DNA of 56,886 nt from the NCBI GenBank assembly GCA_903836465.1, contig CAILRB010000024.1:1-56886 (forward strand). Reading direction: 5' to 3'. Within the stretch, counting starts at the first letter, position 1; the number at the start of each line of letters is the position of its first letter. The notes below the pieces were generated by a model that ran no database searches, had not been told where the DNA came from, and worked only from the letters and a program-made list of their open reading frames with translations. Of this stretch, positions 1,500 to 20,283 are shown one piece after another. Both the position numbers and the translations under genes were made by a program. This stretch comes from an uncultured Chlorobiaceae bacterium (GTDB lineage Bacteria; Bacteroidota; Chlorobiia; Chlorobiales; Chlorobiaceae).

Positions 1500-1509
1500 T
1501 GCCTGACAG
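1497..1509 (-). repeat. 13-bp inverted repeat, right arm
   Basis: Exact reverse complement of 125-137, starting within the methyltransferase stop codon. It closes the toxin-methyltransferase cassette. Confidence 0.7.
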
Positions 1510-1556
1510 GAATATTCTGCAACTCCCATATTTAGAACAGATAAAGCCTCTTCGAG

Positions 1557-1985
1557 CTATATTGGTCGATAATCAGCCAACAATTTGATATTGCCAATAT
1601 CTTTCGCTTTCCGAAAATACTGTTCATCAGCCATTATCAGCAACGCGCCCAAATGTAAAGCAACGGCATGATAAAGAGTGTCGAAAAGATGGTGGTTAAG
1701 GCGGATCGACAGAGAACATGCAATATTCCATAATGGCTGGATTTTAGTCACAGAAACCATGCCTAATTCCTGCAAATCTGCAATGTCATCGGTAATGGTG
1801 TCCGGCTTCAGGCGAACACCGAGTGCTGCGATTTCGGCTAACCAATGGCAAGGCTGCAGGACAGCTATTGTGCCTGCCCGTAAAGCATAGAGCAGCGCCA
1901 AAGCTTCCGCAACGTTTTGTTCGTCGGGATTTTCGGGAATCAGCCATTTGATAATCACACTCGAGTCCAATACAAACTGGTTCAT
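1557..1985 (-). CDS. vapC: VapC-type PIN-domain toxin (ribonuclease)
   Basis: A 142-residue PIN-domain protein. The acidic metal-binding residues fall where expected: Asp7 in the opening F-V-L-D-S-S-V strand, Glu51, Asp102 in L-F-D-T-L-Y-H-A-V-A, and Asp120 in I-M-A-D-E-Q-Y-F. PIN toxins of VapBC systems cut RNA, often tRNA or rRNA, with Mg2+ or Mn2+. The gene starts inside the end of the antitoxin gene (4-base ATGA overlap), the usual VapBC layout. The system appears intact and is transcribed toward the methyltransferase gene, so the two cassettes converge. Confidence 0.88.
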   Translation of the reverse strand: MNQFVLDSSVIIKWLIPENPDEQNVAEALALLYALRAGTIAVLQPCHWLAEIAALGVRLKPDTITDDIADLQELGMVSVTKIQPLWNIACSLSIRLNHHLFDTLYHAVALHLGALLIMADEQYFRKAKDIGNIKLLADYRPI

Positions 1986-2212
1986 GGCCGTCCCGCTAAG
2001 CGAGCTGCCTGAATTTCCTCTGCACTGACCGGTTTTGTTGTAGCCCGCCGAGCTAAAAGCCTGTCGACGGCCTTGGCACGGCGATGCACGGTTTCCTGTT
2101 CAAGGGCTTCTTGCAAGAGTCGAGCAAGCATTTCTTCGATTGTTTGGCCGACAAAGATACTCTCACAACGTTTTTTCAAATCGTCGGGTATGTCGATTGT
2201 CAGGATTGCCAT
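1982..2212 (-). CDS. vapB: VapB/FitA-like antitoxin
   Basis: A 76-residue protein beginning with a short beta strand (A-I-L-T-I-D-I-P) followed by two helices, the ribbon-helix-helix DNA-binding arrangement of FitA/VapB antitoxins. An Arg/Lys-rich middle and a small flexible C-terminus would wrap the toxin. The start is supported by an AGGGAG element about 10 bases upstream on the minus strand. It precedes vapC with a 4-base overlap and would repress its own promoter in the 2213-2480 gap. No frameshift or truncation is visible. Confidence 0.8.
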   Translation of the reverse strand: MAILTIDIPDDLKKRCESIFVGQTIEEMLARLLQEALEQETVHRRAKAVDRLLARRATTKPVSAEEIQAARLAGRP

Positions 2213-3684: not shown

Positions 3685-5424
3685 ATGAATATTGACCGGC
3701 GCCTTTTTCAGTTGCTTAAAGAAGAACGAACGCCGTTTATCGTTTCGATTTTATCGGGAATTCTTGCTGCGACAATGCTGGTTGCACAGGCTTACTACCT
3801 CAGTCAGGTAATCGACAGCGCCTTTATAAAAAAAAGCGGCATGGAGAAACTCTTCCTGCCACTCTGTCTCTTTGCGCTTTTCAGCACCCTGCGCATGGCC
3901 TTCAACTGGTTCTCGCATACTGAAGCGAACCGTGGCACGCTGATCATTCGCAAGAAAGTGTTCACCCGGCTCACCAGCACGGTCGGCGCACTCGGGCCGA
4001 TCTATGCCAAATCGGTACAGAGCGGACGGCTCAGCACCACTCTCCTGAAGGGAGTTGAAGCGCTCGACGCCTATTACAGCCAGTATATTCCCCAGATCTT
4101 TTTTGCCCTCTTCACACCGCTTCTTATTGCTGGCACCATCATGCCCGGCGACCCGATCTCCGGCGGCATCCTGCTTGGTACTGCGCCTTTTATTCCCCTC
4201 TTCATGATCCTGATCGGGAAATCGGCCAGTGCCATGACTGAAAAGCAGTGGAAAACCATGAGCCGGATGAGCGGCTTCTTCCTCGATGTGCTGCAAGGAC
4301 TGCCGACCCTGAAACTCTTTGCGCAGAGCAAACGGCAGCACTTCGCAATTGAGAAGTCGGGCGAAAGCTTCCGCCACGCCACCATGCGCGTCCTGAAAGT
4401 AGCCTTTCTTTCTTCACTGACCCTTGAACTGGTGGGCACCATCGGCATGGCCATTATTGCCGTCAGCATCGGTCTCCGACTTATGAGCGGAAAACTCACC
4501 TTTCAGCACGCTCTTTTTGTGCTGATACTGACCCCGGATTTCTACCTCCCCCTGCGTCAGCTTGGCACAAAATTTCATGCTGGAATGGAGGGGGTCAGCG
4601 CTTCAAAAGAGATCTTTGCTATCCTCGATCAAAGCACCCCTGTTTCTCTACAAAAACCTGCCTTTGCCGTGCAGCAGATCGCCGGCAAGATGCCCATTCT
4701 TTTCAGTAATGTGAGCTACACCTATCCAGGAGGCTCGCAACCAGCACTTGAGGGCATTAACGTTACCATTCCTGCGGGTAAAACGACCGCCATCATCGGC
4801 CCGAGCGGTGCGGGAAAGAGTACCCTGATCAACCTGATCCTCCGCTTTCTGGTGCCCGGCGAAGGAAGCATCACCGTCGACGACGATCCGATTCATGACA
4901 TACCGCTTGAGGATTGGCACAAACAGATTTCCTGGGTTCCGCAGCACCCCTATCTTTTCAACACCACCTTACGGGAGAATATCCGCCTCGCAAAACCAGA
5001 GGCTTCAGCAGAGGAGATGGAGATCGCACTGAACAGGACCGGCCTCACCAGCTTTATCAAGACGCTGCCCGCCGGACTTGAGACCATGATCGGCGAAGAG
5101 GGAGCGCGACTGAGCGGCGGAGAGGCGCAACGGGTAGCGCTTGCTCGCGCGTTTCTGAAAAATGCTCCGCTCCTGGTGCTCGACGAGCCAACCTCGCATA
5201 CTGATCCTGAACTGGAAGCCGCTCTGCGCGGATCAATCCAGGAGCTGATGAGAGGAAGAACCACGGTCATCATTGCCCATCGACTTGAGACCATACGCTC
5301 ATCTGAACAGATCATCGTCGTCAGCGGGGGAAAAGTCACCCAATGTGGCACCCACGAGGAGCTGATTGCCAATGGTGGCTTTTACCACGACAGCCTGCTT
5401 CTGCAACAGGAGAGTCCATCATGA
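3685..5424 (+). CDS. cydD: Thiol reductant ABC exporter subunit CydD
   Basis: A 579-residue half-transporter: six-helix membrane domain (residues 1 to about 320) followed by an ATPase domain. Walker A G-P-S-G-A-G-K-S is at about 372-379, the signature L-S-G-G-E-A-Q-R at about 476, Walker B L-L-V-L-D-E-P-T at about 496, and the switch histidine at about 532 in I-I-A-H-R-L-E. With CydC it forms an inner-membrane heterodimer needed for cytochrome bd assembly, exporting glutathione/cysteine and linked to haem. Its stop overlaps the cydC start (ATGA), indicating coupled translation. In many bacteria cydAB adjoin cydDC; here they do not, so the oxidase genes must lie elsewhere or be absent. Confidence 0.9.
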   Translation: MNIDRRLFQLLKEERTPFIVSILSGILAATMLVAQAYYLSQVIDSAFIKKSGMEKLFLPLCLFALFSTLRMAFNWFSHTEANRGTLIIRKKVFTRLTSTVGALGPIYAKSVQSGRLSTTLLKGVEALDAYYSQYIPQIFFALFTPLLIAGTIMPGDPISGGILLGTAPFIPLFMILIGKSASAMTEKQWKTMSRMSGFFLDVLQGLPTLKLFAQSKRQHFAIEKSGESFRHATMRVLKVAFLSSLTLELVGTIGMAIIAVSIGLRLMSGKLTFQHALFVLILTPDFYLPLRQLGTKFHAGMEGVSASKEIFAILDQSTPVSLQKPAFAVQQIAGKMPILFSNVSYTYPGGSQPALEGINVTIPAGKTTAIIGPSGAGKSTLINLILRFLVPGEGSITVDDDPIHDIPLEDWHKQISWVPQHPYLFNTTLRENIRLAKPEASAEEMEIALNRTGLTSFIKTLPAGLETMIGEEGARLSGGEAQRVALARAFLKNAPLLVLDEPTSHTDPELEAALRGSIQELMRGRTTVIIAHRLETIRSSEQIIVVSGGKVTQCGTHEELIANGGFYHDSLLLQQESPS

Positions 5425-7142
5425 AAACCTTTATTCGCCTCATTGCACTGGTCAAACCATACTTCTGGTGGATGGCCCTTGCCGCACTCATCGGCTTTGC
5501 CACCACTGGCAGCGGCATCGGGCTGCTGATGACCTCCGCCTACATCATTGCCAAGGCGGCCCTGCAGCCTCCGACAGGAAGCCTGCAATTCGGTATTATA
5601 GGAGTACAGCTCTTCAGCCTTGGTCGAGGAGTCTTCCGATACGCCGAACGGCTCATCTCCCACAACATCACCTTCAGGATTCTTGCGAAATTGCGCCTCT
5701 GGTTTTACGATGCCATTGAGCCCCTTGCACCGGCTCGACTCATGCACTTCAAAAGTGGTGACCTGCTGCAACGGGTTGTGGACGATATCCAGAGCCTCGA
5801 AAACATCTACACCAGGGTGCTTGGGCCACAGCTCACTGCACTGCTTGTGGCTGCTATGATGTGGTTTCTTCTCGGCGTCTACTCCCCGCAGGCGGCGATG
5901 CTCATCCTCTTTTCCCATAGCCTTGCTGGCATCGGCGTACCACTCCTCACCAAAAAGTTAAGTCGAGGTGTCTCGGTCGGTATTATGAAACACAAAGCAG
6001 AGCAGCAGGTGCTTGCGCTGGACCTCTTTCAGGGCATCGGGGAGCTGCAACTCTATGGAAAGCTAACGGCACACCTCACCGCCATGCAGAACGCTGAAGC
6101 TGGCAAGCTACAACTCGAGAGAAAAAACGCCATCATCGAAGGGTTGCACGAATCGCTCACCGGGCTCCTCATGAACGGCGCACTCATCGCTATTCTCTGG
6201 GCGCTTATTCCCTCTCTTGCCACCGGCGCGGTTAACGGGATTTCACTCACTGTCATCACCCTTGCCGTTATGGCCTCCTTCGAGCCTTTTCTCCCCCTGC
6301 CATCAACCCTCAAGCACCTCGAAGCCGACCAGCACGCAGGAGAGCGCCTCTTTGAAATCCTCGAAGCCAAGCCGGAAACTGTCGCCCCGGCCACTCCGCT
6401 ACCCTTTCCGGCAGAACATACCATCAAGGCAGAATCGCTCAGCTTCACCTACCCCGGCAGTGCCACAAAAGCACTCGACCAGCTTACTTTTACCGTTCTT
6501 CCGGGAGAGCACATTGCCATCGTCGGGCCGAGCGGAGCAGGGAAATCGACAATCACCTCGCTCTTCATGCGCTTCTGGAACAGCAGCGAAGGGAGTATCA
6601 CCATCGGAGGCCAGAACATCACCCTCTTTGACCCCGAAGAGCTGCGGCGCAACATTGCCCTCGTCTCACAAAAAACCTACCTCTTCGCCGAAACTATCCG
6701 TGAAAACCTTACCCTTGCTGCACCTGAGGCCACTGACGACGATCTTAAAAAAGCCCTCACCGCCGCCGGTCTTGGCTACTTCATCACAAAACTTGACAAA
6801 TGGTGCGGCCAGCACGGCATGAAACTCAGCGGAGGAGAAAGACAGCGCATCGCCATCGCCAGAATTCTGCTGCAGAAGGCTCCAATCATGATTCTCGACG
6901 AAGCAACCGCCAATCTCGACGGCGTTACGGAGAGAGAGGTGACAGAGACCTTGAACGCCATCAGTGCCGGAAAGACGCTGATAACGATTACCCACCGACT
7001 AAAGGCGATGGAGCAGTATGACCGTATTCTTGTGCTTGAGAAGGGAAAGATTGTGGCGAAGGGTGTGCACGGAGAATTAATGAGCAAGGATGGGCTTTAT
7101 CGCAGAATGTGGGAGTTGCAGCATGTCGTGGAGGTTAGATAA
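5421..7142 (+). CDS. cydC: Thiol reductant ABC exporter subunit CydC
   Basis: A 573-residue partner of CydD. I chose the ATG at 5421 because it overlaps the cydD stop and gives a normal N-terminus (M-K-T-F-I-R-L-I-A-L-V-K-P-Y); the open frame runs further upstream inside cydD only by chance. Membrane domain to about residue 320, then ATPase domain with Walker A G-P-S-G-A-G-K-S at about 369, signature L-S-G-G-E-R-Q-R at about 469, Walker B I-M-I-L-D-E-A-T and switch I-T-H-R-L. Both half-transporters have complete catalytic motifs. The operon ends here; about 140 bases separate it from a converging gene. Confidence 0.9.
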   Translation: MKTFIRLIALVKPYFWWMALAALIGFATTGSGIGLLMTSAYIIAKAALQPPTGSLQFGIIGVQLFSLGRGVFRYAERLISHNITFRILAKLRLWFYDAIEPLAPARLMHFKSGDLLQRVVDDIQSLENIYTRVLGPQLTALLVAAMMWFLLGVYSPQAAMLILFSHSLAGIGVPLLTKKLSRGVSVGIMKHKAEQQVLALDLFQGIGELQLYGKLTAHLTAMQNAEAGKLQLERKNAIIEGLHESLTGLLMNGALIAILWALIPSLATGAVNGISLTVITLAVMASFEPFLPLPSTLKHLEADQHAGERLFEILEAKPETVAPATPLPFPAEHTIKAESLSFTYPGSATKALDQLTFTVLPGEHIAIVGPSGAGKSTITSLFMRFWNSSEGSITIGGQNITLFDPEELRRNIALVSQKTYLFAETIRENLTLAAPEATDDDLKKALTAAGLGYFITKLDKWCGQHGMKLSGGERQRIAIARILLQKAPIMILDEATANLDGVTEREVTETLNAISAGKTLITITHRLKAMEQYDRILVLEKGKIVAKGVHGELMSKDGLYRRMWELQHVVEVR

Positions 7143-7279
7143 AACCAACCTATCAGCAATACGAGTAATTTCGATATCTTACGTTCGGTAAGCTAACTCC
7201 AGATCAAATGTATGCACAGTTACCAAAGAATAACATTTTTTTACAAATATTTCGATCAATGTACCGCCGAATAATGCGG

Positions 7280-7855
7280 TTAGCGGGATTGTAATTTTTT
7301 CCCAACAGAAAATGCCTTAGCCAGCAGTGGCCCGATGCCGTAGTAACCTCTTTGAGCGGTGTCGAAAATAAGTGGCTTGATTTTCATGATGTCGAGACGG
7401 CCATCTTCACCGAAGAGATCGGTATCAGCCTTGACATTCATAATTTCACCAATAAACTGCGTATGCAGACCAATCTCAATGACGTGAAGCAGAGTGCACT
7501 CCAATACTACAGGAAATTCGGCCGCATAAGGGGCATCGATCAGTTCACTTTTGACAGGAGTCAGTCCCGTGACGGCAAACTTGTCAACGTCACGCCCTGA
7601 TACAATTCCTATGTAATCTGCCTCCGCTATCTTTTCTTCAGAGGCGATCCCGACTGTGAAGGCTTTCCGTTCAACAATGCAATCATAGGTGTAGGTTGCT
7701 TTGCGCAGCGACACAGCAACACAAGGTGGTTGTGAACAGCAGATCCCACCCCAGGCAACGCTCATAAGATTTGGTTTGCCAGTATGATCATAAGTTCCAA
7801 CCATCAAGACTGGTGTTGGAAATAACAGTGTTTTTGCTCCGACTGATTTTTTCAT
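7280..7855 (-). CDS. Flavin reductase-like, FMN-binding split-barrel protein
   Basis: About 191 residues from the ATG at 7855 (an in-frame ATG at 7885 would add 10; neither has a good Shine-Dalgarno). The start [16 protein letters not shown] is typical of the family. The segment [15 protein letters not shown] and the later A-F-T-V-G-I-A-S are characteristic of flavoredoxin/DIM6-NTAB flavin reductases, which bind FMN and pass electrons from NAD(P)H or other donors to partner oxygenases or acceptors. It is the last same-strand gene of the large minus-strand cluster, after a gap of about 230 bases, so membership in that operon is uncertain. Confidence 0.8.
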
Positions 7856-8085
7856 AATCGTGTCTGCCGTAGAGTTCACACCCATTAATGTAAATATTTA
7901 TTAAGTAGCTCAAGTCAGCAACTATCGACGGGAGGTTTTACAACAAGTTCACTACTCTGATCGTCAACAGATTAAGCAACATCGCCTAATGAGAACATCA
8001 GGACACAAAGAAAGATAAACTCTGAGGGAACTACTGCGGGAAATTGAAACACTCAGCAAAATAATTATATCTGGAAAGTTTTGTT

Positions 8086-8868
8086 TTATAATACTCGTTG
8101 AGTGGCAAGATAATCCTTAATACGAGCGAGCTGATCCACAAAAGCTTCAGGTGTTACAGTGATGATTCCTGCATAAGGGTGATCCAGCGCAACAATCAAA
8201 AGAAGTACCAGAGTGATTATTCCTGCAAGTGATGCAACCATAAAAGACTGTGCCCATAAATTCTCCATACCAAAGAGAAAACTGAAACCAATGGTAATTA
8301 TAGCACCGACAATCATCACACTCCACATAAAGTCAGGAATACCTTCTTTGGCTGCCTGAATTCTATGATTTCGTGCATTATAAAAGTTATTAAGCCTGCT
8401 GATAATTTCCTGATACCATATTTTTTGATATTCATTTGCAGGTTTGATTTCTGTTACCAAAGTAAAAATACGTCTGATCGATTTCACCGCATGTTCACTT
8501 GCTTGTTCTTTAGCCATCAATGCCCACTCTTCATTGATCACGATATTGGTATAGTTTACTATTTCCTTCGAGACCAATGATTTCTGTGGTTCATCAAAGG
8601 CTTGCATATCCCGCAGAACCGATGCCATACACTGAACCTCTTCCTGAACTCTGCTATCGGCGTCACGAAACATCTCCCACTCCACAATTACAACAAAAGC
8701 AAGTAAAACAGCATAAATAACTCCAACTACCGCATAAATAAATCCGGCAACATCATTATGCTTAGCCATCAATGAATGCCCATACACTTTTCTAATAATC
8801 ACAAGGCATAACACCGAAACAGCCATTACTAACCCAGTTACACTGACAAGAAACAATACATCCGTCAT
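8086..8868 (-). CDS. Bestrophin-like DUF4239 membrane protein
   Basis: A 260-residue inner-membrane protein with four hydrophobic segments: about 4-25 and 42-62 near the N-terminus, and about 180-202 and 208-230 near the C-terminus. They enclose a helical cytosolic middle. The V-I-V-E-W-E-M-F segment after helix 2 and the L-D-H-P-Y-A-G after helix 4 match DUF4239, a family related to bestrophin anion channels. Transport activity is unproven. It starts 30 bases after the stop of the AGE-STAS gene, so it probably belongs to the same transcript and may be the membrane component of the cluster. Confidence 0.75.
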   Translation of the reverse strand: MTDVLFLVSVTGLVMAVSVLCLVIIRKVYGHSLMAKHNDVAGFIYAVVGVIYAVLLAFVVIVEWEMFRDADSRVQEEVQCMASVLRDMQAFDEPQKSLVSKEIVNYTNIVINEEWALMAKEQASEHAVKSIRRIFTLVTEIKPANEYQKIWYQEIISRLNNFYNARNHRIQAAKEGIPDFMWSVMIVGAIITIGFSFLFGMENLWAQSFMVASLAGIITLVLLLIVALDHPYAGIITVTPEAFVDQLARIKDYLATQRVL

Positions 8869-8898: not shown

Positions 8899-11067
8899 CT
8901 ACATTTTTGTCTTATCGTACGCATCAAGCAACACAACCTCCTCAGAAAGCTCTTCACGATCAAAGAACACCTTAACCCCTTCATTTGCTCCACAGATATA
9001 GAGGTCACAATCAATACTCATTTTCTGCTTCTCGAATATTATTGTGCGTACTGCTTCTTCAACGAGGGACTGCAGTGCTGTCATATCAAAAGCTACTTTA
9101 GCCGGGTTTTTAGAGGCAATCTCTACAAGTTTTTTTCTGAATGAGTGAATTGCTACATGATCCAGATCACCTACCAGTGTCAATTTGGTAACGTCACCAT
9201 CCTGATCAACAGTCATTGTGAAATGTTCTACACTGCCAACCGGTACAAGGCGAACCTGAACTTTGACACGATTTTGTGTGTCTGGAAGCTTGACCGTAAG
9301 ATTTTCAGCATCAAAATCCAGATACTCCTTTCCATCAATCCATGCTTTTTCAATCTTGCAACATCCTGCTGGCAGAATATCAGGGGCAACACGAAGAATG
9401 TTGTCCTTGAAACCATGAGAGTAAGGTTTAAAAAAGAGGTCAAGGTGCTGTTTGGTAATCAGCAAGTTCTGGTAGACAGTAGCAAGATAGGCAAGTTCAA
9501 ACGAGTGATAACCGCTCATGCTGTGACTGCCCTTGAGCCTCTCAGTACCCAGCAAATATGGAATACCAGATGACAGTACGTTAAAATAAATACCGCCGCT
9601 ATCCTGATCAAGGAACCATGCGCTGTAAAATGCGCTTGACTCTCTGGCATGCTGGAGATACTCTTTTTTACCGGTTGTGCCAAAAAGAATAAGATAGGCA
9701 AGTATTCCCTGTTCCTGCTGCCACCATGCTTTACGGTCATGCCATGCATAGCGGTGGAATTTCTGGCCTTCTTCAAGAGTTCTTTCAACAACATCGTACC
9801 AGCCGCCACGTTGCCGGTCACAGCCATGTTCAGGCATAAGAACTGCGATCTTGTGGGCAAATTCCATGTAAGCGTCACTTTTTTCTTGCTCAAGACCTTC
9901 AACACTGTTGATACGTGCCAAATTCCAGGCAATTTTCAGATTATGACCAACAACACCCCTGTTCTGCTGCCAGCCATGGGTGGAATCATGTTCCCAATTA
10001 GCATGGAATTTTTCCTGTACAAAAGCGCTATGCTCATAGTCAGGGAAATGCTCTGTGATAGTATCGGCCGTGTTGACAAGCATCTTTTTAAAACGCTCGT
10101 CACCTGTGGCAAGATAGGCATTAATCAGGTACGCCGGCGCATGGTCACCGACACTGTTCCAGTTCTTGCGTCCACGATTGCCCACAAGAGATTCTGCGTT
10201 TGGATCGAAGGTCACTGGATCAATATGTGAGAAATAACCCCCAAGTTGCCGATCATAAAAGTACTTATCAAAAAGATTAAGCGTCATATCAATATCGCTT
10301 GCAATCTCGGGGTCGCCGGTTACACGGTATGTCTGTGTCGGGCCGGCAAGCGCATAAATCTGCTCATAAGCCGGGATGGCATCATAGTCATCACCGAATT
10401 CTGAAGCAAAAATCTTCCGCTCATGTTTTCCTTTGACATCAATACCATGGTACCAGTAGGTGATGTTTTCACTGGTATCCTTGCAGCGCATGTGCTCACG
10501 TAAATAGACCGTACCTTTTTCTGCGCCTTCAAGATATCGATCATCGCCAGTCAAAAGGTAAGCTGTTGCAAAACCATAGACAAGACGCGACATGGTATCA
10601 GTTTCCTGACGGAAATTACCAGTTTGTTCTCCCTCAAGTGAAAGGTTGGTTTTGTATTTACGGTAGTCAACATCACCATCAGGAAACTGGGCTTTAAGAT
10701 AAAAGTCACCGAGTTGACGAATCTGCTTGATCCACCAGTCCTGTTTTTCAAAACGAAACTCTTGTTCATCCTTCCCGAGAAATACTAAATGCTTGGCTTC
10801 AAACTTGACTTCATCTTCAGGAAAGAAGACTCCGTAAACATAGAGAAATCTGCCAGGGGCAAGCATATCCTTTATCTGGCCTGTACAGTCAATAAACGCC
10901 TCACCGAGATTTCTTACTAATTCAGCATAAATATTCGCACCGAGTTTGACTTCGAAAGTTCTTCCATCTGAAGTATCAAGACTGAAGGTTTGTTTATCCC
11001 AGTCATAATGGGTCACATACCCCTGAATGGTATCAGAAAAAGTAAACCCCAATTTGTTTTTTTCCAT
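8899..11067 (-). CDS. AGE-type (alpha/alpha)6-barrel protein with C-terminal STAS domain
   Basis: A 722-residue three-part protein. Residues 1 to about 105 form a beta-rich N-terminal domain. Residues about 110-560 form an N-acylglucosamine 2-epimerase-like barrel with the family's histidine signatures G-H-N-L-K-I-A-W (374-381) and K-A-W-W-Q-Q-E (446-452), plus His515 and His521. Residues about 614-722 form a STAS domain as in anti-sigma-factor antagonists. The STAS segment that normally carries the phosphorylated serine (D-S-S-G-L) reads D-M-T-A-L-Q-S-L-V-E-E, so classical phospho-switching is unlikely. AGE enzymes epimerise or isomerise sugars; this substrate is unknown. It follows glgX by 3 bases, with a GAGG ribosome site, suggesting action on glucan breakdown products. 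The domain fusion is unusual. Confidence 0.8.
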   Translation of the reverse strand: MEKNKLGFTFSDTIQGYVTHYDWDKQTFSLDTSDGRTFEVKLGANIYAELVRNLGEAFIDCTGQIKDMLAPGRFLYVYGVFFPEDEVKFEAKHLVFLGKDEQEFRFEKQDWWIKQIRQLGDFYLKAQFPDGDVDYRKYKTNLSLEGEQTGNFRQETDTMSRLVYGFATAYLLTGDDRYLEGAEKGTVYLREHMRCKDTSENITYWYHGIDVKGKHERKIFASEFGDDYDAIPAYEQIYALAGPTQTYRVTGDPEIASDIDMTLNLFDKYFYDRQLGGYFSHIDPVTFDPNAESLVGNRGRKNWNSVGDHAPAYLINAYLATGDERFKKMLVNTADTITEHFPDYEHSAFVQEKFHANWEHDSTHGWQQNRGVVGHNLKIAWNLARINSVEGLEQEKSDAYMEFAHKIAVLMPEHGCDRQRGGWYDVVERTLEEGQKFHRYAWHDRKAWWQQEQGILAYLILFGTTGKKEYLQHARESSAFYSAWFLDQDSGGIYFNVLSSGIPYLLGTERLKGSHSMSGYHSFELAYLATVYQNLLITKQHLDLFFKPYSHGFKDNILRVAPDILPAGCCKIEKAWIDGKEYLDFDAENLTVKLPDTQNRVKVQVRLVPVGSVEHFTMTVDQDGDVTKLTLVGDLDHVAIHSFRKKLVEIASKNPAKVAFDMTALQSLVEEAVRTIIFEKQKMSIDCDLYICGANEGVKVFFDREELSEEVVLLDAYDKTKM

Positions 11068-11070
11068 GTT

Positions 11071-13167
11071 TTACCTCGCTTTTGAGATTAAAATTACAGA
11101 AGAGTGAGCTTTGACATTGTAACTCTTTTCAACTACTGACTTTGCCTTTTTCATTTCGACGATATCCTGCGGAGAGGGCAAAGATGTATCCGCAAAACGC
11201 AACCATAGATAACCGTCAATTTGCGGAATTTCAAAATCAAGGTTGTCCATACTCATGTTGAGCATAACATGTAAATCTGGCTCCGTCTCAACAAAAGAGG
11301 CAATAGTAAATGAAAGCACCCTGCACTGAGGATCATTCCACCCTGGAGCAAGTAACTCGCAACCATGCCATTCAATATCTCGCATCCCCTTCTTGTTGAA
11401 TTGTGAACCATTATAAAATGTGTCACGCCTCAACGACAAAAGCGATCTGCGAAGATTAATTACCCCACTGAAATAACGAACTAAATCGCTGTTCTTTTCA
11501 GTCAATTGCCAGTCAAACCAGTTGAGTTTATTGTCCTGACAATAGGTATTGTTATTGCCCTGTTGTGTACGTCCGAATTCATCCCCTCCAAGGATCATGG
11601 GAACACCCTGGGAAAGCATCAGAATTGTTATAAAGTTTTTAACATCCCGCTTTCTGAATTCGTTGATTGCCGGGTCATCGCTAGAACCTTCAACACCATG
11701 GTTCCAACTGGAATTATCGTCATTACCATCACGGTTATCCTCGCCATTTGCGAAGTTATGCTTAATATTGTACGACACAAGATCCATCAAGGTGAATCCA
11801 TCGTGGCAGGTAACAAAGTTAATGGAATTCATCGGTGTGTGCCGATTATGCGAATAGATGTCGCTTGAACCTGAAAGCTTGGCTGCTACTGCTCCAGCGA
11901 GTCCCCCATCTCCTTTAACAAAATTACGTATGGTGTCGCGATAACGTCCGTTCCACTCGGCCCATCGATAACCGGGGAAAGAGCCAATCTGATAAACCCC
12001 TGCCGCATCCCAGGCCTCGGCAATAAGTTTTGTATCGGCAAAGGTATCCATAAGCTCAAGATTCCATATAACAGGAGCATGTTCGAGTGGACGACCATCT
12101 TCACCCCTGCTCAATACTGAGCCTTCATCGAAGCGAAAACCGTCAACATGCATTACATCAACCCAAAACGCAAGGCAGTCGGTAATAAACTTTTCAACAA
12201 TTGGATGATTACAGTTAACGGTGTTTCCACACCCGGTATAATCCATGTAAAACTTTTTGTCACCAGGAACAAGATGATAATAAATGGCATTATCTATAGC
12301 CTTGAAACAAAGTACCGGCCCCTGATGGTTACCTTCGTCAGTGTGATTAAACACAACATCAAGGATAACTTCGATGCCTGCTTTATGCAAAGCCTTAACC
12401 ATATCACGGAATTCATTGAGATGGTCTCCCTCATGAGGCTTGCAGCAGTACCTCGCCACAGGAGCAAAAAAGCCTACCGTGCTATACCCCCAGTAGTTCG
12501 TAAGCTCCGTTCCATCGGGCATTGTTTTGAGTACCTGCTTCGTATCAAACTCAAAAACCGGAAGAAGTTCAACTGCTGTCACTCCAAGTTTTTTGAGATA
12601 AGGGATCTTCTCAATCATTCCACGAAATGTCCCGGCATGTTTGACTCCGCTTGAATCATCTTTGGTAAATCCCCGAAGATGCACTTCATAGATAATAGTA
12701 TCATCCATTGGAGTTTTCAGACACTGATCTCCCTCCCAGTCATACTTGTTTTCGTCAATGACCACGCTCCGCATTGATGATGTGACATTATCATCATCAT
12801 TGCAAGCATCTCCCCGGTTATAAAGTTCGTCGGTATTACCACGGGCATAAGGGTCAATCACAACCTTGTTCCGGTTGAACAAATGCCCCTGTGCAGGATC
12901 AAAAACTCCATCAATTCTATAGGCATAATGTGTTCCCGCCCCTATACCCCTAACATAAGCATGCCAGAAATGGAAGGTACGATTAACTTTAGGGTCAAGT
13001 TTAATCGTCATGGATGGATGGAAGTCGTCGTGCTTGTCGAAAAGGCACAACTCAACTCCTGTGGCATTTTCTGTGAAAATTGAGAAATTTACTCCGTTTG
13101 CGTCGGGTGTAGCTCCAAGTGGATGGGCTATACCTTTTTCGACAGAGATAGCTACTTTTTTCGCCAT
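11071..13167 (-). CDS. glgX: GlgX-type glycogen debranching enzyme (GH13)
   Basis: A 698-residue alpha-glucan hydrolase. An N-terminal CBM48-like domain (about 10-130) precedes a GH13 barrel. Catalytic residues are present: nucleophile Asp347 in V-D-G-F-R-F-D, acid/base Glu384 in L-I-A-E-A-W, and transition-state Asp456 in T-C-H-D-G-F-T; region I is D-V-V-F-N-H at 270-275. GlgX/isoamylase-type enzymes cut alpha-1,6 branches. The length fits. The gene starts 3 bases after the VOC gene and ends 3 bases before the AGE-STAS gene, so it sits inside a tight operon rather than in a glycogen operon, which is odd for this enzyme. Confidence 0.88.
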   Translation of the reverse strand: MAKKVAISVEKGIAHPLGATPDANGVNFSIFTENATGVELCLFDKHDDFHPSMTIKLDPKVNRTFHFWHAYVRGIGAGTHYAYRIDGVFDPAQGHLFNRNKVVIDPYARGNTDELYNRGDACNDDDNVTSSMRSVVIDENKYDWEGDQCLKTPMDDTIIYEVHLRGFTKDDSSGVKHAGTFRGMIEKIPYLKKLGVTAVELLPVFEFDTKQVLKTMPDGTELTNYWGYSTVGFFAPVARYCCKPHEGDHLNEFRDMVKALHKAGIEVILDVVFNHTDEGNHQGPVLCFKAIDNAIYYHLVPGDKKFYMDYTGCGNTVNCNHPIVEKFITDCLAFWVDVMHVDGFRFDEGSVLSRGEDGRPLEHAPVIWNLELMDTFADTKLIAEAWDAAGVYQIGSFPGYRWAEWNGRYRDTIRNFVKGDGGLAGAVAAKLSGSSDIYSHNRHTPMNSINFVTCHDGFTLMDLVSYNIKHNFANGEDNRDGNDDNSSWNHGVEGSSDDPAINEFRKRDVKNFITILMLSQGVPMILGGDEFGRTQQGNNNTYCQDNKLNWFDWQLTEKNSDLVRYFSGVINLRRSLLSLRRDTFYNGSQFNKKGMRDIEWHGCELLAPGWNDPQCRVLSFTIASFVETEPDLHVMLNMSMDNLDFEIPQIDGYLWLRFADTSLPSPQDIVEMKKAKSVVEKSYNVKAHSSVILISKAR

Positions 13168-13170
13168 GGT

Positions 13171-13584
13171 TTATACTCCGGTTAAATCATCTTGGTAACC
13201 CTGACTGACTTCGATGATATTTGCGTCTGGATCTTTTATCCATACGGTTTTCCAATTTGGAATAAAACTACTGAAATCAAGAGGCCCGAGTGATATTTCA
13301 AGTTCATTATTGAATTGCGCGATAAACTCATCAACACTCTCTACCTGAAAGGCAATGTGTCGCCAACCGGGATAATTTTGGCCATCTTTATCTGCTTGGG
13401 GGATTGGCCTTTCCGCTTCAGACTTGAATAACTCGAGATAAAAATCACCGCATTTTATAAACACAATCGCGTTGTCATCGCCTAAAGGAATGTTTCTTGC
13501 TCTTGTAAACCCAAAGTATTTGCTGTAAAATTTCTCTGATTTCTCAAGATCCGTGCAAGAAACTGCTACATGAACAAATTTCAT
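13171..13584 (-). CDS. VOC-family (glyoxalase I-like) protein
   Basis: A 137-residue protein made of two beta-alpha-beta-beta-beta units, the vicinal oxygen chelate fold. Likely metal ligands are His5 (F-V-H-V-A-V), Glu51 (L-E-L-F), His76 (R-H-I-A-F) and Glu125 (I-I-E-V). The P-D-A-N-I-I-E-V ending is typical of glyoxalase/bleomycin-resistance/dioxygenase proteins. Members isomerise hemithioacetals, open rings or bind toxins; the exact activity cannot be read from sequence. Given three DJ-1 proteins and a metallo-hydrolase nearby, a glyoxalase-like role is plausible but inferred. It is spaced 3 bases from glgX. Confidence 0.82.
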   Translation of the reverse strand: MKFVHVAVSCTDLEKSEKFYSKYFGFTRARNIPLGDDNAIVFIKCGDFYLELFKSEAERPIPQADKDGQNYPGWRHIAFQVESVDEFIAQFNNELEISLGPLDFSSFIPNWKTVWIKDPDANIIEVSQGYQDDLTGV

Positions 13585-13604
13585 GATGAATCACTTTATA
13601 ATTA

Positions 13605-14168
13605 TTAAGGTATCAAATCAATAATCTGCCGGGCGAAAAGGTGGCAATGTCCACCGGTACGTGCAGTTACAAGATCACCATCAACGACAACATCCTGGTC
13701 AACAAAATCGGCTCCGTAAGCCTTGGCATCACCATAAAGATTGTTGTGACAAACCAGTTTACGACCAGCAATCACCTCTCTTACAGGAGCCAGAAGCCAT
13801 AACCCGTGACAGATCACTCCCTTGATAATCTGCTTGTTTGCAAAGGCACGTTTCATGAACGTCGATGCTGGCGGTATCTTGGCAAGATCTTCGGTATAAC
13901 GGAGTCTGTCGGAAACCATTCCTGCGGGGACAATAATCGCAGAATATGTAGCAAGTTCCTCATCGCTGATACCCTCAAATGAACCGGATACATCAAGTGG
14001 GAGATGATATTCATGACCTTTAAAAGTCAAGGAGGGTTGACCCCAGAGCCTTGTAAGTAGTTGCAGGTCAGCTCCCTCTTCAAGAAACCTCCGTTGATAA
14101 TAGAAGATTTCTGGTTCATAGAAATCGCTTTCCATGAGAATTGCGATTTTTTTACCGCTAAGTTTCAT
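13605..14168 (-). CDS. DJ-1/PfpI-family protein (short type)
   Basis: A 187-residue single-domain DJ-1/PfpI protein. I chose the ATG at 14168, which has a GGAAAAG element upstream, over 14210. The opening K-K-I-A-I-L-M-E-S-D-F-Y-E-P-E holds the conserved acidic residue. The nucleophile elbow is G-V-I-C-H-G-L-W with Cys120-His121, the arrangement of PfpI/YhbO/YajL-type enzymes (glyoxalase III, deglycase or protease activities have been claimed for relatives). The late A-R-T-G-G-H-C-H-L-F-A-R differs slightly from the common pattern. It is the third DJ-1 paralogue of the cluster and the only one of PfpI length, so it is probably not redundant with the other two. Confidence 0.85.
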   Translation of the reverse strand: MKLSGKKIAILMESDFYEPEIFYYQRRFLEEGADLQLLTRLWGQPSLTFKGHEYHLPLDVSGSFEGISDEELATYSAIIVPAGMVSDRLRYTEDLAKIPPASTFMKRAFANKQIIKGVICHGLWLLAPVREVIAGRKLVCHNNLYGDAKAYGADFVDQDVVVDGDLVTARTGGHCHLFARQIIDLIP

Positions 14169-14223
14169 GAGTTCTTTTCCTTTATAAGAATTGTTAGAAA
14201 AGACTGGCAAATGCTTACATCAT

Positions 14224-15945
14224 TTACTGCCCGCAGCGAACACCGACCAGGTGCGGATGTGTATCCCCTTCAAGGATCAGATCAATCAAGAACGGCTTAT
14301 CGTCGGCAAGCATTCTGGTAATTGCTGCCGGAATATCTTCAACCGCTTCCACCCTCACCGCATCAACGCCCATAGACTGTGCAATCAGATCAAATCTTGT
14401 TTCAGGAAAAGACAAATCAAATGGCACCGGCATCTCCCGATTATTGATTGCCTGCTCTTTCCAGTACTCCTTGATATTCAACTGCAGCAATCGATAGGCG
14501 CCATTACTGCAAACGATAAACTTTGCACCAATCTTGTGCCTTGTTGCTGAGGAGAGAGCCTGAATGGTATACATTGATCCACCGTCACCTGAAAAACCGA
14601 TAACGACTTTGTCAGGGTTGGCAAGTTTCACCCCTATAGCACCGGGGAAACCCACACCGAGAGATCCGCCACGAGTGGCGAAATAGGAACCAATTTTCCG
14701 GGGGGGAAAATATCTGGTCAAAGCGGGGCTATTGGTAAGCGCTTCATCAAAAATAATCGCATCTTCGGGAAGTTTTGGGGCCAGCTCTTCCATGAACCTC
14801 GACATGAACATCGGCAGAATATCGCGGTTCGCAGCATCCTTTTCAACCTGAATTGAAAGTTTTTTTCTGTTCTCCTCCTGAATTTCATCTGTCCTTTTTT
14901 TCGCAGCCTCTCTGTCTCCGTCGGTCATGACCTGCTCAAGCTTGTCGGCTAATGCGTTCAGTGTCAATTTAGGATCAGCTACAGCGCTGTAATCTACCCG
15001 ATGATTCTTGGCAATCTCATAAGCATTGAGATCAATATGAATAACTCGTGCATCAGGGTCATACACGTTACCCAATTCGGGGAACACCTCAGGTAACATA
15101 TAGGTCCCAACAATCAGCATCACATCAGCTTTGCGTGTTATCGGCAAACTCGCCGATCCAAACATGTGGCCTGTAGTTCCACAATAGAGTGGATGCATCG
15201 TATCCATATTAAAATCGCCAACATCAACGCCATAAACCTCTGCTCCAAGCAACTCCGCGACGCGAGTCAGCTCATTTTCAGCATGGGAGTATGCAACCCC
15301 GTCACCCATAAAAATAACGGGTTTGGAACCACCGAGAAGCTCTTTGGCAAAAAGGCTTATTGTCTCATCACCAGGAAGCACTGCTGTACCGGGAATATGT
15401 GTCGGAAAAACCTCTTCGTCATTAATCTCACTGAGAATATCAAGAGGCAAACAGACATACACCGGTCCCATAGGCGGGGTTGTTGCAATTTTTATTGCAC
15501 GACGAAGAGTTCGCAAAATGGAATTCTTGTCATAGACAACTGTAGAGTATTTAGTTACCGGTTCCATGATCGCGGTAAGATCCGCAGCCATCTGCGCATC
15601 CATATTGAGATACTTGACACCGGCATCTCCGCCAATACACACCAAAGGGGCATGCCCCCGTTTTGCCTGGTAAAGGGCGCCAACAGCATTACCAATACCA
15701 GGACTACTATGCAGTTGTACCAGTGCCGGTTTTTTGGTCGCTCGCGCATATCCATCAGCCATCATTACCGCAACAGACTCCTGTAAAGAGAGAATGTAAC
15801 GGAGTTGAGGATAATCTGCGAGCGCATCCAGAAAACCTTGCTCTACTGTGCCGGGATTACCGAACATATAGGTAAAACCATCAGCAATAAACTGCTCAAG
15901 TATTTTTTGATTTCCAGTTTTACCAGCCATATCTTTTGAGTCCAT
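14224..15945 (-). CDS. ThDP-dependent decarboxylase/carboligase, benzoylformate decarboxylase-like
   Basis: A 573-residue thiamine-diphosphate enzyme with the three-domain POX/PDC layout. The catalytic glutamate is Glu56 in S-L-Q-E-S-V-A-V-M-M-A-D-G-Y-A. The cofactor and Mg2+ motif is G-D-G-G at 453-456, with Asn481 closing it. The N-terminal G-N-P-G-T-V-E-Q-G and H-S-S-P-G-I-G-N-A (from His79) look closer to benzoylformate decarboxylase and relatives than to acetolactate synthase; no regulatory subunit is adjacent. It would decarboxylate a 2-oxo acid or join aldehydes. The start overlaps the preceding DJ-1 gene by 26 bases; an ATG at 15930 is an alternative. The substrate is unknown. Confidence 0.85.
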   Translation of the reverse strand: MDSKDMAGKTGNQKILEQFIADGFTYMFGNPGTVEQGFLDALADYPQLRYILSLQESVAVMMADGYARATKKPALVQLHSSPGIGNAVGALYQAKRGHAPLVCIGGDAGVKYLNMDAQMAADLTAIMEPVTKYSTVVYDKNSILRTLRRAIKIATTPPMGPVYVCLPLDILSEINDEEVFPTHIPGTAVLPGDETISLFAKELLGGSKPVIFMGDGVAYSHAENELTRVAELLGAEVYGVDVGDFNMDTMHPLYCGTTGHMFGSASLPITRKADVMLIVGTYMLPEVFPELGNVYDPDARVIHIDLNAYEIAKNHRVDYSAVADPKLTLNALADKLEQVMTDGDREAAKKRTDEIQEENRKKLSIQVEKDAANRDILPMFMSRFMEELAPKLPEDAIIFDEALTNSPALTRYFPPRKIGSYFATRGGSLGVGFPGAIGVKLANPDKVVIGFSGDGGSMYTIQALSSATRHKIGAKFIVCSNGAYRLLQLNIKEYWKEQAINNREMPVPFDLSFPETRFDLIAQSMGVDAVRVEAVEDIPAAITRMLADDKPFLIDLILEGDTHPHLVGVRCGQ

Positions 15946-16750
15946 TGATTAATACATCGACAAATTTATCACCCATTTCATAAGAGCACTGCAGTGATCG
16001 TGCTGTTATAAACGGATAATCAACTACTACTGAGGTCTCCTTTCCAAAATTACCATGATACTGACCTTTAGGACCGACTGCATCGGTGAGGATATACTCC
16101 AGAACATAAGGAGGAGGCCCGATATTAAAATCGGTATGAAGGAAACCGGTTCCATCATGATAATCATATTCAATGCAATGCCCGGTAACGTGCTTGCCTT
16201 TTATGATGCTCTTCCTTTCGTTGAAATCTCTGGCAAAAACAAGAGCAGCAACACCGTAACAAATCGCAGCAACTGGCTGATTCTTTCTGTAAAATCCTAA
16301 TATCAGCTCATGAAGACTCTGATTGTTCACCAAATCAACAATAGGTCCGCTTCCACCAACAACAAACAAAGCATCATACTCACTGGTAAGAAACTCGACG
16401 GACTCTTTTACCTTGGTATAATATTGTTCGAGATTTCTGAGAAAATTAGTTGCTGAATAGTAGGGTCTTTCTGGAATGTAGGATTTAAGCGAGAGTGGAG
16501 TTGAGGTACGATTTTTTGCAATAAAGGCTTTCACATCATCCTCGTGCTGCTTTGTTGTGACACAGACACCAAGCGGTGGATCAACATAAGTTGAATCAAA
16601 GCTTGGTGGAAGAGCATCTGCAGGTTTACCGTTGGGAGTCATAAAATCAACAGTATAACCAGCAGCTTCAAGTTTATTCAGCGGTCCAACCAATTCAATT
16701 CCCCAGTATCCATATTCTGAGAGAATCGCCAGAACTTTTTTCTTGCTCAT
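15920..16750 (-). CDS. DJ-1/PfpI-family type 1 amidotransferase-like protein (long type)
   Basis: A 276-residue protein of the DJ-1 superfamily, Hsp31-like in size. The opening K-K-V-L-A-I-L-S-E-Y-G-Y-W-G-I-E-L carries conserved Glu19. The nucleophile elbow is A-A-I-C-Y-G-V-A-A-L with Cys164, preceded by V-V-G-G-S-G-P at about 131. Long insertions (about 60-115 and after 185) distinguish it from the PfpI-length paralogue at 13605-14168. Hsp31-type relatives are glyoxalase III-like hydratases or chaperones. It lies 62 bases after an NTF2-like gene and overlaps the ThDP enzyme gene. It resembles the protein at 20284-21039 more than the short one. Confidence 0.83.
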   Translation of the reverse strand: MSKKKVLAILSEYGYWGIELVGPLNKLEAAGYTVDFMTPNGKPADALPPSFDSTYVDPPLGVCVTTKQHEDDVKAFIAKNRTSTPLSLKSYIPERPYYSATNFLRNLEQYYTKVKESVEFLTSEYDALFVVGGSGPIVDLVNNQSLHELILGFYRKNQPVAAICYGVAALVFARDFNERKSIIKGKHVTGHCIEYDYHDGTGFLHTDFNIGPPPYVLEYILTDAVGPKGQYHGNFGKETSVVVDYPFITARSLQCSYEMGDKFVDVLINGLKRYGW

Positions 16751-16812
16751 GAAATATACATTTAGAAATTATTGATAATTATATCCATGTTCTTAAAAGA
16801 ATCAGACTACCA

Positions 16813-17205
16813 TCAAGCAAGGGAACCATCAGGATATTGCACCATACCCGCAAAATGTATGGCAATTTTACCGTCACGAAGCACCCAGCTATCAGCAAAG
16901 CGCATATTGGCAACCCCGTCTGCTGTTGTCATCGTGATCTGTTCTGTAATCATGAGCGTTTGGGGTGCTTCGGTCTCAGACCAAAATATAATTTCGGTTT
17001 CAAGACCCTGGATACCAAGAATACCCTGCATGTGCTCCCGCAACTGCTCCCGCCCTTTATAAATAATGGGCTTTTTCATAAAGCTGCTGATAAGCATAGC
17101 GTCATCGGTATACTGATCAAGCAACGCCTCAATATTCTTGTCTAAGATAAAATTAATATGAGCTTTATACATCTGGCCCATTGGGGTATCCGGAACATTT
17201 TTCAT
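16813..17205 (-). CDS. NTF2/SnoaL-like protein
   Basis: A 130-residue cone-fold protein: long N-terminal helices (K-A-H-I-N-F-I-L-D-K-N-I-E-A-L-L-D-Q-Y-T-D-D-A), a Y-K-G-R-E-Q-L-R-E-H turn, then curved beta strands ending D-S-W-V-L-R-D-G-K-I-A-I-H-F-A-G-M. This is the DUF4440/SnoaL pattern, used by cyclases, isomerases, dehydratases and non-catalytic ligand binders. It carries no signal peptide, so it is probably cytosolic. It is one of three such genes in the cluster. Its similarity to the protein at 21071-21415 (the same D-D-A and H-Y/F-x-G-M elements) suggests an old duplication. Confidence 0.75.
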   Translation of the reverse strand: MKNVPDTPMGQMYKAHINFILDKNIEALLDQYTDDAMLISSFMKKPIIYKGREQLREHMQGILGIQGLETEIIFWSETEAPQTLMITEQITMTTADGVANMRFADSWVLRDGKIAIHFAGMVQYPDGSLA

Positions 17206-17298
17206 GTTTGCCCTTTGTTATTGGTTAAATGTGCGCAACTCTCAGCTAATGACCTATTGACAGAAAAAGTATCCTTGCGAATACTCTCTGACTGATAG

Positions 17299-17736
17299 TT
17301 ACAATTTTGCTGAGCCTTCCTGATAATTCAATGCGTTAACAACATACTTTGTAATGACGGCATCACCTGATTTAGGTGAACGTTTTACAACCCATGATTG
17401 ATCGGCGTCAAGAATGATTCTTTCGCTTTTTGCAGACGGAGGATTCCAGACACTTGCCTGCCATTCAACAACAAGGTTAACTTCCGCAGTTTCACCCTGG
17501 AGATTTATGTTCACCTCCTTAAGCCGGTGCACCTCGTCAAAAAAGATTCGAATAACTCTCTCATACCACCCTTCAAACGCAACCAAGCCCTGCAACGTTG
17601 CCTCTGGAAACGTCATTTCCAGATTCTCTTCTGACAGTAATGGTATGAAATCGAGGAGGGGGGCATGAACATCAAGTTTTCTGTACCATATTTTGGCAAG
17701 ATCTGATACTTCTGATTCAGTTAAAGGTTTTGTCAT
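17299..17736 (-). CDS. NTF2/SnoaL-like protein
   Basis: A 145-residue protein starting at the ATG at 17736, which has GGAG 7 bases upstream; the in-frame TTG at 17748 is less likely. The pattern is a helix (A-K-I-W-Y-R-K-L-D-V-H-A-P), a strand pair around E-M-T-F-P-E, a G-W-Y-E-R-V segment, and long strands such as A-E-V-N-L-V-V-E-W-Q-A. These indicate the SnoaL-like cone fold. No catalytic residues can be assigned. The three NTF2-like proteins of the cluster differ enough to bind different ligands. The gene is separated from the upstream porin gene by a strong stem-loop. Confidence 0.7.
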   Translation of the reverse strand: MTKPLTESEVSDLAKIWYRKLDVHAPLLDFIPLLSEENLEMTFPEATLQGLVAFEGWYERVIRIFFDEVHRLKEVNINLQGETAEVNLVVEWQASVWNPPSAKSERIILDADQSWVVKRSPKSGDAVITKYVVNALNYQEGSAKL

Positions 17737-17801
17737 AGCGTACTCCAAAGATTGTTTTTTATTATTAATCTTATTCTCTCTTATGACACTTTTCCGAAGC
17801 T

Positions 17802-17829
17802 TGACAACAGGGAGTTACCCCTGTTGTCA
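17802..17829 (-). terminator. Stem-loop inside the operon (attenuator or processing site)
   Basis: An 11-bp perfect stem, tgacaacaggg pairing with ccctgttgtca around a 6-base loop, lies between the porin gene (stop 17871) and the next gene (start 17736). On the minus strand no U-run follows, so it is not a classical terminator. It may attenuate read-through or protect the upstream porin mRNA. Confidence 0.6.
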
Positions 17830-17870
17830 TTTCCTTGTTTAAGCTCAGCTACATTTATCCAACGATTTTA

Positions 17871-19352
17871 TCAGAGATGGTACAACATAGTAAACTGAAG
17901 CATAGTTGAGTTTTTGTCGCCTAAACCAAATACACGGTCGATCCCTCCCTGGGCAGGTTTGGCATTCCCATAAATCAGCATATAATCTACTTTCTGGGTA
18001 GGAGAATAACCAAGAATCAAATCCCATTCAGAAGCAAATTTACTACTAGATACCGGCAGATTAGTGAACAGTTGTGCAGTACTCGGCTCATTAAACTGAT
18101 AATTGTAATAGAAGATCTTCATCCAGCTTCCCTTTACCGGCGGAATCAAGGTTAGATTCACAAAATGTGTGTCAAGATTAGTTAAACGGGTCTCGTATGT
18201 TCCAACCACAATTCCCTGATACCAGTATCCAAACCCACGTTCAGTAGAACCATTGTACAGGTAATCCCAGCCTTCATTTTTATTTGTTGTACTCGCCTTG
18301 TCACCTGAAAATGAAGAATATCGGTAACCAAGTGTCGGGTACCAAGGCAAGCTTGGCATAAAGTATTTTGCCTCTGCAAACCAAGCAACCGCATCTCTAT
18401 TGATATAACTATTGTTATTCTTCTGGAAATCAACTTCTCCAGCAAGTTCGAGGTTCTGAAGAGTTGAAACAGGATTTCCGCGACCATGTATTCCTGTAAC
18501 ACTCAATCCATCACGCTCATGATTATTTGAACTGGCCACTTTAAAGTATGATACCCCTACCTTACCAAGCTTTTTATCAACCAATTCAAAATTGCCACCT
18601 ACAATGTTATCTTTGTAGATATCTTCGATGGGGTTCTCATCCTTGATATAGGTATTGGATTGCAGGTAAAACAGCTCCAACTGATAGGGAAGTGATTTAA
18701 GACGTACAATCGCCGAATTATTCCATGCCGTCCTTGGATCCAGCCAATAAATACCTTTATGAGGACTGGCTTCATCATTTCCATCGGTTAAAACCATACC
18801 ATCGCCAAGCTGAAAGTTCTGCTTGCCAACACTGATATCCAATCCATCCTGGTCGAGAAAAGAGATATTATTCCCGGACTTCCAACCCAGAAATGCCTTA
18901 TCCAAGTTAAGATATGACATGTTTTCACCGATAACATACGGAGGGTTGCTACCTAACGAATAATGTTCACCGTTCGTCAAACCCCAACTATCGCCATCCC
19001 CTCTAGTTATAGAGCCAACAGCACGTAATCCCCCATATATAGTGCCTGAATCTGAGGTTTTCCATAATAAATTAGCACTTGGAGCAAAATAACCTTCTGA
19101 CCTCGCAATATCTGTTGCACCGTAGGAAGGGGGAAATGTATTTACGCCTAACTGTCCCAAGCCAAAATGAGTATTGTTTATCGACATACTCGAAAATCCA
19201 GCCGTTAATCCATAATCAATCTTGGGATTGTCATTACCGGCTAAAACTGCATCGGGATACACTGCACTAATAAAAAAGCCTGCAGCAACAACTGCACAGC
19301 ATGATTGCAAACTTTTTATAACATTCTTTTTACTAAGCTTACTATGCTTCAT
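17871..19352 (-). CDS. Outer-membrane porin-like beta-barrel (alginate-export-like)
   Basis: A 493-residue secreted protein. I chose the ATG at 19352 for its excellent GGGGGAGG ribosome site. A signal peptide of about 34 residues ends V-L-A before G-N-D-N. The remainder alternates polar and aromatic residues in long strands separated by Asn/Gly-rich loops and ends in H-L after an aromatic strand, as expected of a 16-18-stranded outer-membrane channel. The closest family I can suggest is the alginate-export (AlgE-like) barrels; this is tentative. It would admit or release the compound handled by the operon. It is followed by a stem-loop that could raise its expression relative to downstream genes. 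Confidence 0.7.
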   Translation of the reverse strand: MKHSKLSKKNVIKSLQSCCAVVAAGFFISAVYPDAVLAGNDNPKIDYGLTAGFSSMSINNTHFGLGQLGVNTFPPSYGATDIARSEGYFAPSANLLWKTSDSGTIYGGLRAVGSITRGDGDSWGLTNGEHYSLGSNPPYVIGENMSYLNLDKAFLGWKSGNNISFLDQDGLDISVGKQNFQLGDGMVLTDGNDEASPHKGIYWLDPRTAWNNSAIVRLKSLPYQLELFYLQSNTYIKDENPIEDIYKDNIVGGNFELVDKKLGKVGVSYFKVASSNNHERDGLSVTGIHGRGNPVSTLQNLELAGEVDFQKNNNSYINRDAVAWFAEAKYFMPSLPWYPTLGYRYSSFSGDKASTTNKNEGWDYLYNGSTERGFGYWYQGIVVGTYETRLTNLDTHFVNLTLIPPVKGSWMKIFYYNYQFNEPSTAQLFTNLPVSSSKFASEWDLILGYSPTQKVDYMLIYGNAKPAQGGIDRVFGLGDKNSTMLQFTMLYHL

Positions 19353-19390
19353 TTGAATCCTCCCCCAATTATAATAGTCGATTTTTAAAA

Positions 19391-20215: not shown

Positions 20216-20283
20216 CGCCTTATAATTATGGTGTCTTGCAAAAATTGCCTTACTGTCATAAAAAGAAATAGTACCACCCCAAC

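Follow-up and report, generated by a model that had tools for sequence, protein, structure and literature searches.

The window, the whole 56,886-nucleotide stretch of DNA analysed here, carries on its minus strand an open reading frame in which an AGE-type barrel is joined to a C-terminal STAS domain of the STAS2 type described below. The gene, its domains, the residues of interest and the neighbouring genes are as follows.

8899..11067, minus strand: AGE-STAS fusion gene (open reading frame, 722 amino acids)
10780..11031, minus strand: N-terminal OB-fold-like β domain, residues 13-96 (AF2, Foldseek)
9448..10740, minus strand: AGE-type (α/α)6 barrel, residues ~110-540 (Pfam PF07221, Foldseek)
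10144..10146, minus strand: D308, at the first catalytic His of cellobiose epimerases, with H309 adjacent (profile alignment)
9934..9945, minus strand: H375-N-L-K378, the GHxxE motif with Glu changed to Lys (profile alignment)
9505..9507, minus strand: H521, at the last catalytic His (profile alignment)
9241..9447, minus strand: β-rich segment between barrel and STAS, residues 541-609 (AF2 model)
8902..9222, minus strand: STAS domain, residues 616-722, STAS2/Slr1859-like (Pfam PF01740, STAS2 HMM)
9058..9060, minus strand: E670, at the phospho-acceptor Ser position (SpoIIAA alignment, fused/split comparison)
9022..9036, minus strand: F678-x-K-Q-K682, candidate AGE-contact surface (kept in fused STAS and STAS2, not in STAS1)
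11071..13167, minus strand: GlgX glycogen debranching enzyme, the most constant neighbour (TIGR02100, E 1e-221, over cut-off)
13171..13584, minus strand: VOC/glyoxalase-like gene, recurrent neighbour (Pfam, neighbourhood comparison)
13605..14210, minus strand: DJ-1/PfpI-like gene, recurrent neighbour (Pfam, neighbourhood comparison)
14224..15945, minus strand: thiamine-pyrophosphate enzyme of the acetolactate-synthase type, recurrent neighbour (Pfam, neighbourhood comparison)
8086..8868, minus strand: bestrophin-like (DUF4239) protein, occasional neighbour (Pfam, neighbourhood comparison)

The plus strand of 8899-11067 is interrupted by stops. The architecture given in the initial annotation, an AGE-type barrel followed by STAS in one frame, was recovered with Pfam above the curated cut-offs: GlcNAc_2-epim (PF07221) matched residues 141-495 (E 9.9e-18) and STAS (PF01740) residues 619-711 (E 2.5e-8), the latter being the hit whose absence that annotation had named as fatal to its proposal. 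A whole-protein AF2 model from 58 homologues (pLDDT 84, pTM 0.81), the structure prediction it had called for, was compared using Foldseek and placed the barrel with glucose and cellobiose 2-epimerases, with TM-scores up to ~0.8 by target length. The N-terminal domain, for which the Pfam search gave no match, was also modelled separately (residues 1-110, pLDDT 86) and gave weak Foldseek hits (E ~1e-3) to OB folds, namely the LysRS anticodon domain, RPA, IF1 and OBody. A short linker (~residues 610-615) lies ahead of the STAS domain. Since the fusion recurs in independent Chlorobiaceae assemblies (94-98% identity) and in other phyla (55-74%), it is neither an assembly chimera nor a chance joining.

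By barrel fold and by profile the protein belongs to the AGE superfamily (glucose 2-epimerase 8h1k, the cellobiose 2-epimerases and the SQ isomerase YihS), with which it shares the (α/α)6 barrel and two catalytic histidines; it differs from the epimerases of that superfamily in its additional OB-like and STAS domains and in its active site. The catalytic histidines of RaCE are His184, His243 and His374 (PMC13281645). A remote sequence-profile alignment with solved epimerases indicated that two of the three are kept, as H375 and H521, whereas D308 stands at the first, GHNLK replaces GHxxE, and Q453 replaces the Glu of the QAE motif. The "signature histidines" announced earlier are thus present at two positions and missing at the first, alongside K378 in place of the GHxxE Glu, and "sugar epimerase" stands as a fold assignment but not as an enzyme identity, the catalytic residues being replaced. 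D308, H375, K378, Q453 and H521 are invariant in 58/58 relatives, and the epimerase equivalog NF052547 scored 21.5 bits against a cut-off of 600. Epimerase activity is doubtful because only two of the three catalytic histidines are retained. Judged from its sequence, the active site appears conserved yet non-canonical, and we do not call the protein an epimerase. RefSeq names the fused copy of Gemmobacter only 'AGE family epimerase/isomerase', a label that gives no hint of the STAS domain and probably claims too much about catalysis.

We scanned bacterial and archaeal genomes, obtained at least 580 related stretches and retained the best 80 loci, which have hosts among Chlorobiaceae, cyanobacteria, Proteobacteria, Paenibacillus, Actinomycetota, Chloroflexi, Planctomycetes and others; these loci were chosen by closeness to a fused query, so that their fused-to-split ratio is not a frequency. 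The survey of its spread, also proposed at the outset, revealed a recurrent fusion, found at no fewer than 77 loci in many phyla. Five further loci (L062 and L151-L154) encode a more divergent yet recognisable C-terminal STAS, and some distant relatives (L085, L155, L156) have the AGE barrel without STAS. The cyanobacterial genome G061 holds both forms, fused and split (L148 and L075). Within the window's genus the full gene is present in 4 of 37 genomes, with one fragment besides; its nearest relatives beyond the genus are two MAGs and Thiodiazotropha, and homologues also occur on plasmids, a pattern that makes horizontal transfer likely. Our search of the open-access literature found no paper on a STAS-AGE fusion.

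Comparison of the neighbourhoods separated two arrangements. The fused form is usually GlgX then AGE-STAS, with GlgX adjoining all but four of ~78 fused loci. In the split form the order is AGE, STAS1, GlgX and STAS2, followed by genes for an RsbW-like kinase and a SpoIIE-like phosphatase, whose relative order varies. Of the 27 distinct split loci, 25 have an RsbW gene, the two without one reaching contig ends, and 20 have a PP2C gene, while no kinase or phosphatase gene was seen at any of the 77 fused loci over the ~6 kb examined on each side (less at contig ends). Locus L158, a repeat of L076, is outside the 27 split loci and inside the STAS1 (28) and STAS2 (27) totals used below. On annotated RefSeq plasmids, covered by an incomplete gene table, the genes of Streptomyces, Runella and Deinococcus follow the split order, and Gemmobacter has the fused form without kinase or phosphatase. 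The phosphatase of the Runella operon is not annotated as such; among the genes of the incomplete table, the Deinococcus operon shows no kinase and the Nostoc NIES-3756 plasmid has AGE, STAS and GlgX without the remaining genes.

Several side observations concern the wider surroundings. In many cyanobacterial fused loci (the cyanobacterial ones of L019-L054, L060, L067 and L149), the genes that come next downstream encode a fusion of a response regulator with a thioredoxin-reductase-like flavoprotein and, separately, a cyclic-nucleotide-binding histidine kinase, in the place of the split form's kinase/phosphatase pair. On plasmids of Nostoc, Streptomyces and Deinococcus (L159, L160, L162), a MinD/ParA family gene follows the split operon, which is of the icfG type described next. 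In the window, positions 13171-21039 hold a minus-strand run of genes (VOC, DJ-1, the thiamine-pyrophosphate enzyme, two ThiJ-like, a SnoaL-like and a metallo-beta-lactamase fold), homologues of several of which recur near the module in other phyla; GC is ~0.41-0.46 over this run, compared with 0.50-0.55 at 4001-8000.

By gene order and published annotation, the split arrangement corresponds to the icfG operon of Synechocystis PCC 6803 (slr1855-1861). This operon has been tied to growth on low carbon and glucose since the 1990s. It encodes the AGE protein Slr1855, the STAS protein Slr1856, GlgX (Slr1857), a further STAS protein (Slr1859), the phosphatase IcfG (Slr1860) and the kinase Slr1861 (PMC12329169, PMC8670252). 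The window locus has in common with the operon (slr1852-slr1862) an AGE-like gene matching AGE-annotated Slr1855, GlgX, and a STAS2-type STAS, Slr1859 by position; it differs in that STAS2 is fused to the AGE-like protein, that STAS1, the RsbW-like kinase (Slr1861) and the SpoIIE phosphatase (IcfG) are absent from the locus, and that Glu occupies the acceptor Ser position. According to PMC12329169, Slr1861 phosphorylates Slr1856 and Slr1859, and IcfG dephosphorylates Slr1856 only; the paper describes the sigma-factor targets of both STAS proteins as unknown. Slr1859 is the poorer kinase substrate in PMC11619594, where carbon-limited medium with glucose brings out a growth defect in the slr1859 deletion but not in the slr1856 deletion.

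To classify the fused domain, HMMs of STAS1 and STAS2 were built and scored on all 77 fused STAS domains. Every one of them was closer to STAS2 (70.8 vs 18.8 bits for the window), and we therefore rejected an origin from STAS1, the STAS gene adjacent to AGE in split loci. In a STAS tree resting on few columns, the fused domains fall on one side of a branch with SH-aLRT 99, with STAS2 placed between these domains and STAS1. The motif D-M-T-A-L-Q-S-L-V-E-E, quoted in the initial annotation for a "degenerate" STAS, is present as D661-E671, and the term is apt: in the alignment with SpoIIAA, V669-E670-E671-A672 occupies the place of D-S-S-G, and Glu670 takes the position of the phosphorylated Ser, Ser58 of SpoIIAA. 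The domain shares the STAS fold with SpoIIAA/RsbV, aligning across its whole length, but is not free-standing, has E670 where an anti-sigma factor antagonist has its phospho-acceptor Ser/Thr, and shows no conservation of the kinase-facing residues; the antagonist profile TIGR00377 scored 33.9 bits, below its cut-off of 53.45.

The acceptor Ser is present in all split STAS proteins (STAS1 28/28, STAS2 27/27; 55/55 together) and in all solo STAS proteins of the annotated plasmids. Among the fused domains, 39 of 77 have Ser or Thr and the remainder Ala, Pro, Glu, Lys, Asp, Arg or Asn (Fisher p 4e-7 against STAS2, the rows being related), a trait that changed at least 12 times on the AGE tree. Phosphomimicry by Glu670 was rejected as a general rule, since Ala, Pro, Lys or Arg occupies this position in other fused lineages. 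The kinase-facing positions 671-673, 701, 705 and 706 likewise lose conservation in the fused domains, and G633, R674, F678 and K682 remain at 92-100%. A conserved F678-x-K-Q-K682 beside a decayed kinase face would be expected if STAS2 and the fused STAS touch the enzyme in the same way, with a kinase to be met as well by the free form alone.

No SpoIIE phosphatase was found in the window's own genome, where a single free-standing RsbW-like protein is encoded away from the locus, along with two more proteins that have STAS domains; a complete phosphorylation cycle on the window STAS is therefore unlikely. On another contig of this genome (L157), a stand-alone STAS with Ser in the acceptor region (1418-2005, minus strand) lies ~16 kb from an RsbW-like ATPase (18011-18418, plus strand). 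RsbW-like kinases were also found at distant sites in most fused genomes tested, and control in trans is therefore possible. The genomes of L061 and L010 keep the acceptor Ser with no strong RsbW seen; an RsbW elsewhere as the reason for acceptor retention is thus not supported.

We consider it somewhat probable, from these comparisons of genes and alignments, that the protein is a fused icfG-type module, in which the partner-switching subunit STAS2 has become a permanent, non-switched part of an AGE-like enzyme. The earlier suggestion of "regulation of the enzyme" pointed in the right direction, the STAS being the fused form of STAS2 of an icfG-type partner-switching operon. In the split form, the genes of the AGE-like enzyme (Slr1855 type) and GlgX stand together with those of two STAS proteins, the RsbW-like kinase and the SpoIIE-like phosphatase, and STAS2 would bind the AGE-like enzyme in a contact under phosphorylation control. 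In the fused form, STAS2 (Slr1859 type) sits covalently on the barrel, and STAS1, kinase and phosphatase are missing from the locus; here STAS2 would be docked for good and would have ceased to switch, and its phospho-site would drift as a consequence (Glu in the window and Ala, Pro, Lys, Arg or Asp in other fused proteins). An inhibitor that could never leave would shut the enzyme down, so we read STAS2 as a subunit that activates, stabilises or docks, with docking probably toward GlgX. The barrel may act on a glycogen-derived sugar or oligosaccharide, the substrate class to which the constant GlgX partner points.

This proposal of a docked STAS2 draws on the clean division of RsbW (25/27) and PP2C (20) genes in split loci from none in 77 fused ones, on the STAS2 type of all fused domains and the F-x-K-Q-K motif common to these two groups only, on the acceptor Ser that is universal in STAS1 and STAS2 and reduced to Ser/Thr in 39/77 fused domains, on the lack of a SpoIIE phosphatase in the window's genome, and on what is published on Slr1859 (a poorer substrate, not dephosphorylated by IcfG, with a growth defect on deletion). 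Against it, the split loci form one clade in the AGE tree, so that architecture and kinase presence count as a single evolutionary event; RsbW-like kinases elsewhere would allow control in trans, and some fused proteins keep Ser/Thr. Slr1859 may also work through a sigma factor, because Slr1861 has a demonstrated sigma-factor target, SigC.

The same data bear on other roles for the STAS domain. It could be a structural relic that stabilises the protein or its dimer but takes no part in regulation or docking; the unconserved kinase-facing motif SSAGL and T701/T705-G706 loop of the fused proteins and the STAS-free barrels of L085, L155 and L156 would fit, yet STAS is kept in all fused lineages across phyla with G633, R674, F678 and K682 nearly invariant, and we regard this role as unlikely. 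A domain that is still a phospho-switch, with RsbW-like kinases from other parts of the genome acting on it, would account for the Ser or Thr in 39 fused proteins and for the RsbW-like ATPases of the window's and most other fused genomes tested, but it is quite improbable given that the acceptor is missing from half of the fused proteins, among them that of the window, that the window's genome has no SpoIIE phosphatase, and that L061 and L010 pair Ser with no strong RsbW. Recruitment to the bestrophin-like neighbour or a similar membrane protein, raised in the initial annotation, had in its favour a DUF4239 gene directly downstream in the window and in some relatives; with this gene near only ~11 of ~78 fused loci it is not supported as a general role, and a docking adaptor of this kind is very improbable.

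The order of events bears on the docked-subunit proposal as well. In AGE trees rooted with distant outgroups on very long root branches, the split clade falls inside the fused rows, which would suit an ancestral fused form from which the partner-switching operon arose by fission, STAS duplication and recruitment of a kinase and a phosphatase. We view this possibility with some doubt: besides the long root branches, the AU test does not reject monophyly of the fused form (p 0.32), and STAS2 lies between STAS1 and the fused STAS in the STAS tree.

On the favoured reading of STAS2 as a docked subunit, the fusion, its STAS2 type and the loss of the phospho-site where the kinase is gone lead to the prediction that Slr1859 binds Slr1855. 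The fusion points to a possible target of Slr1859, which, like Slr1856, is an icfG-operon phosphoprotein whose target is described as unknown (PMC12329169). We tentatively propose that Slr1859 may act directly on the carbohydrate-active enzyme Slr1855, and not only on a sigma factor, and that in many lineages this regulated complex became fixed, or originated, as one protein that does not switch. If true, this would extend partner switching from transcription to the direct control of a carbohydrate enzyme.
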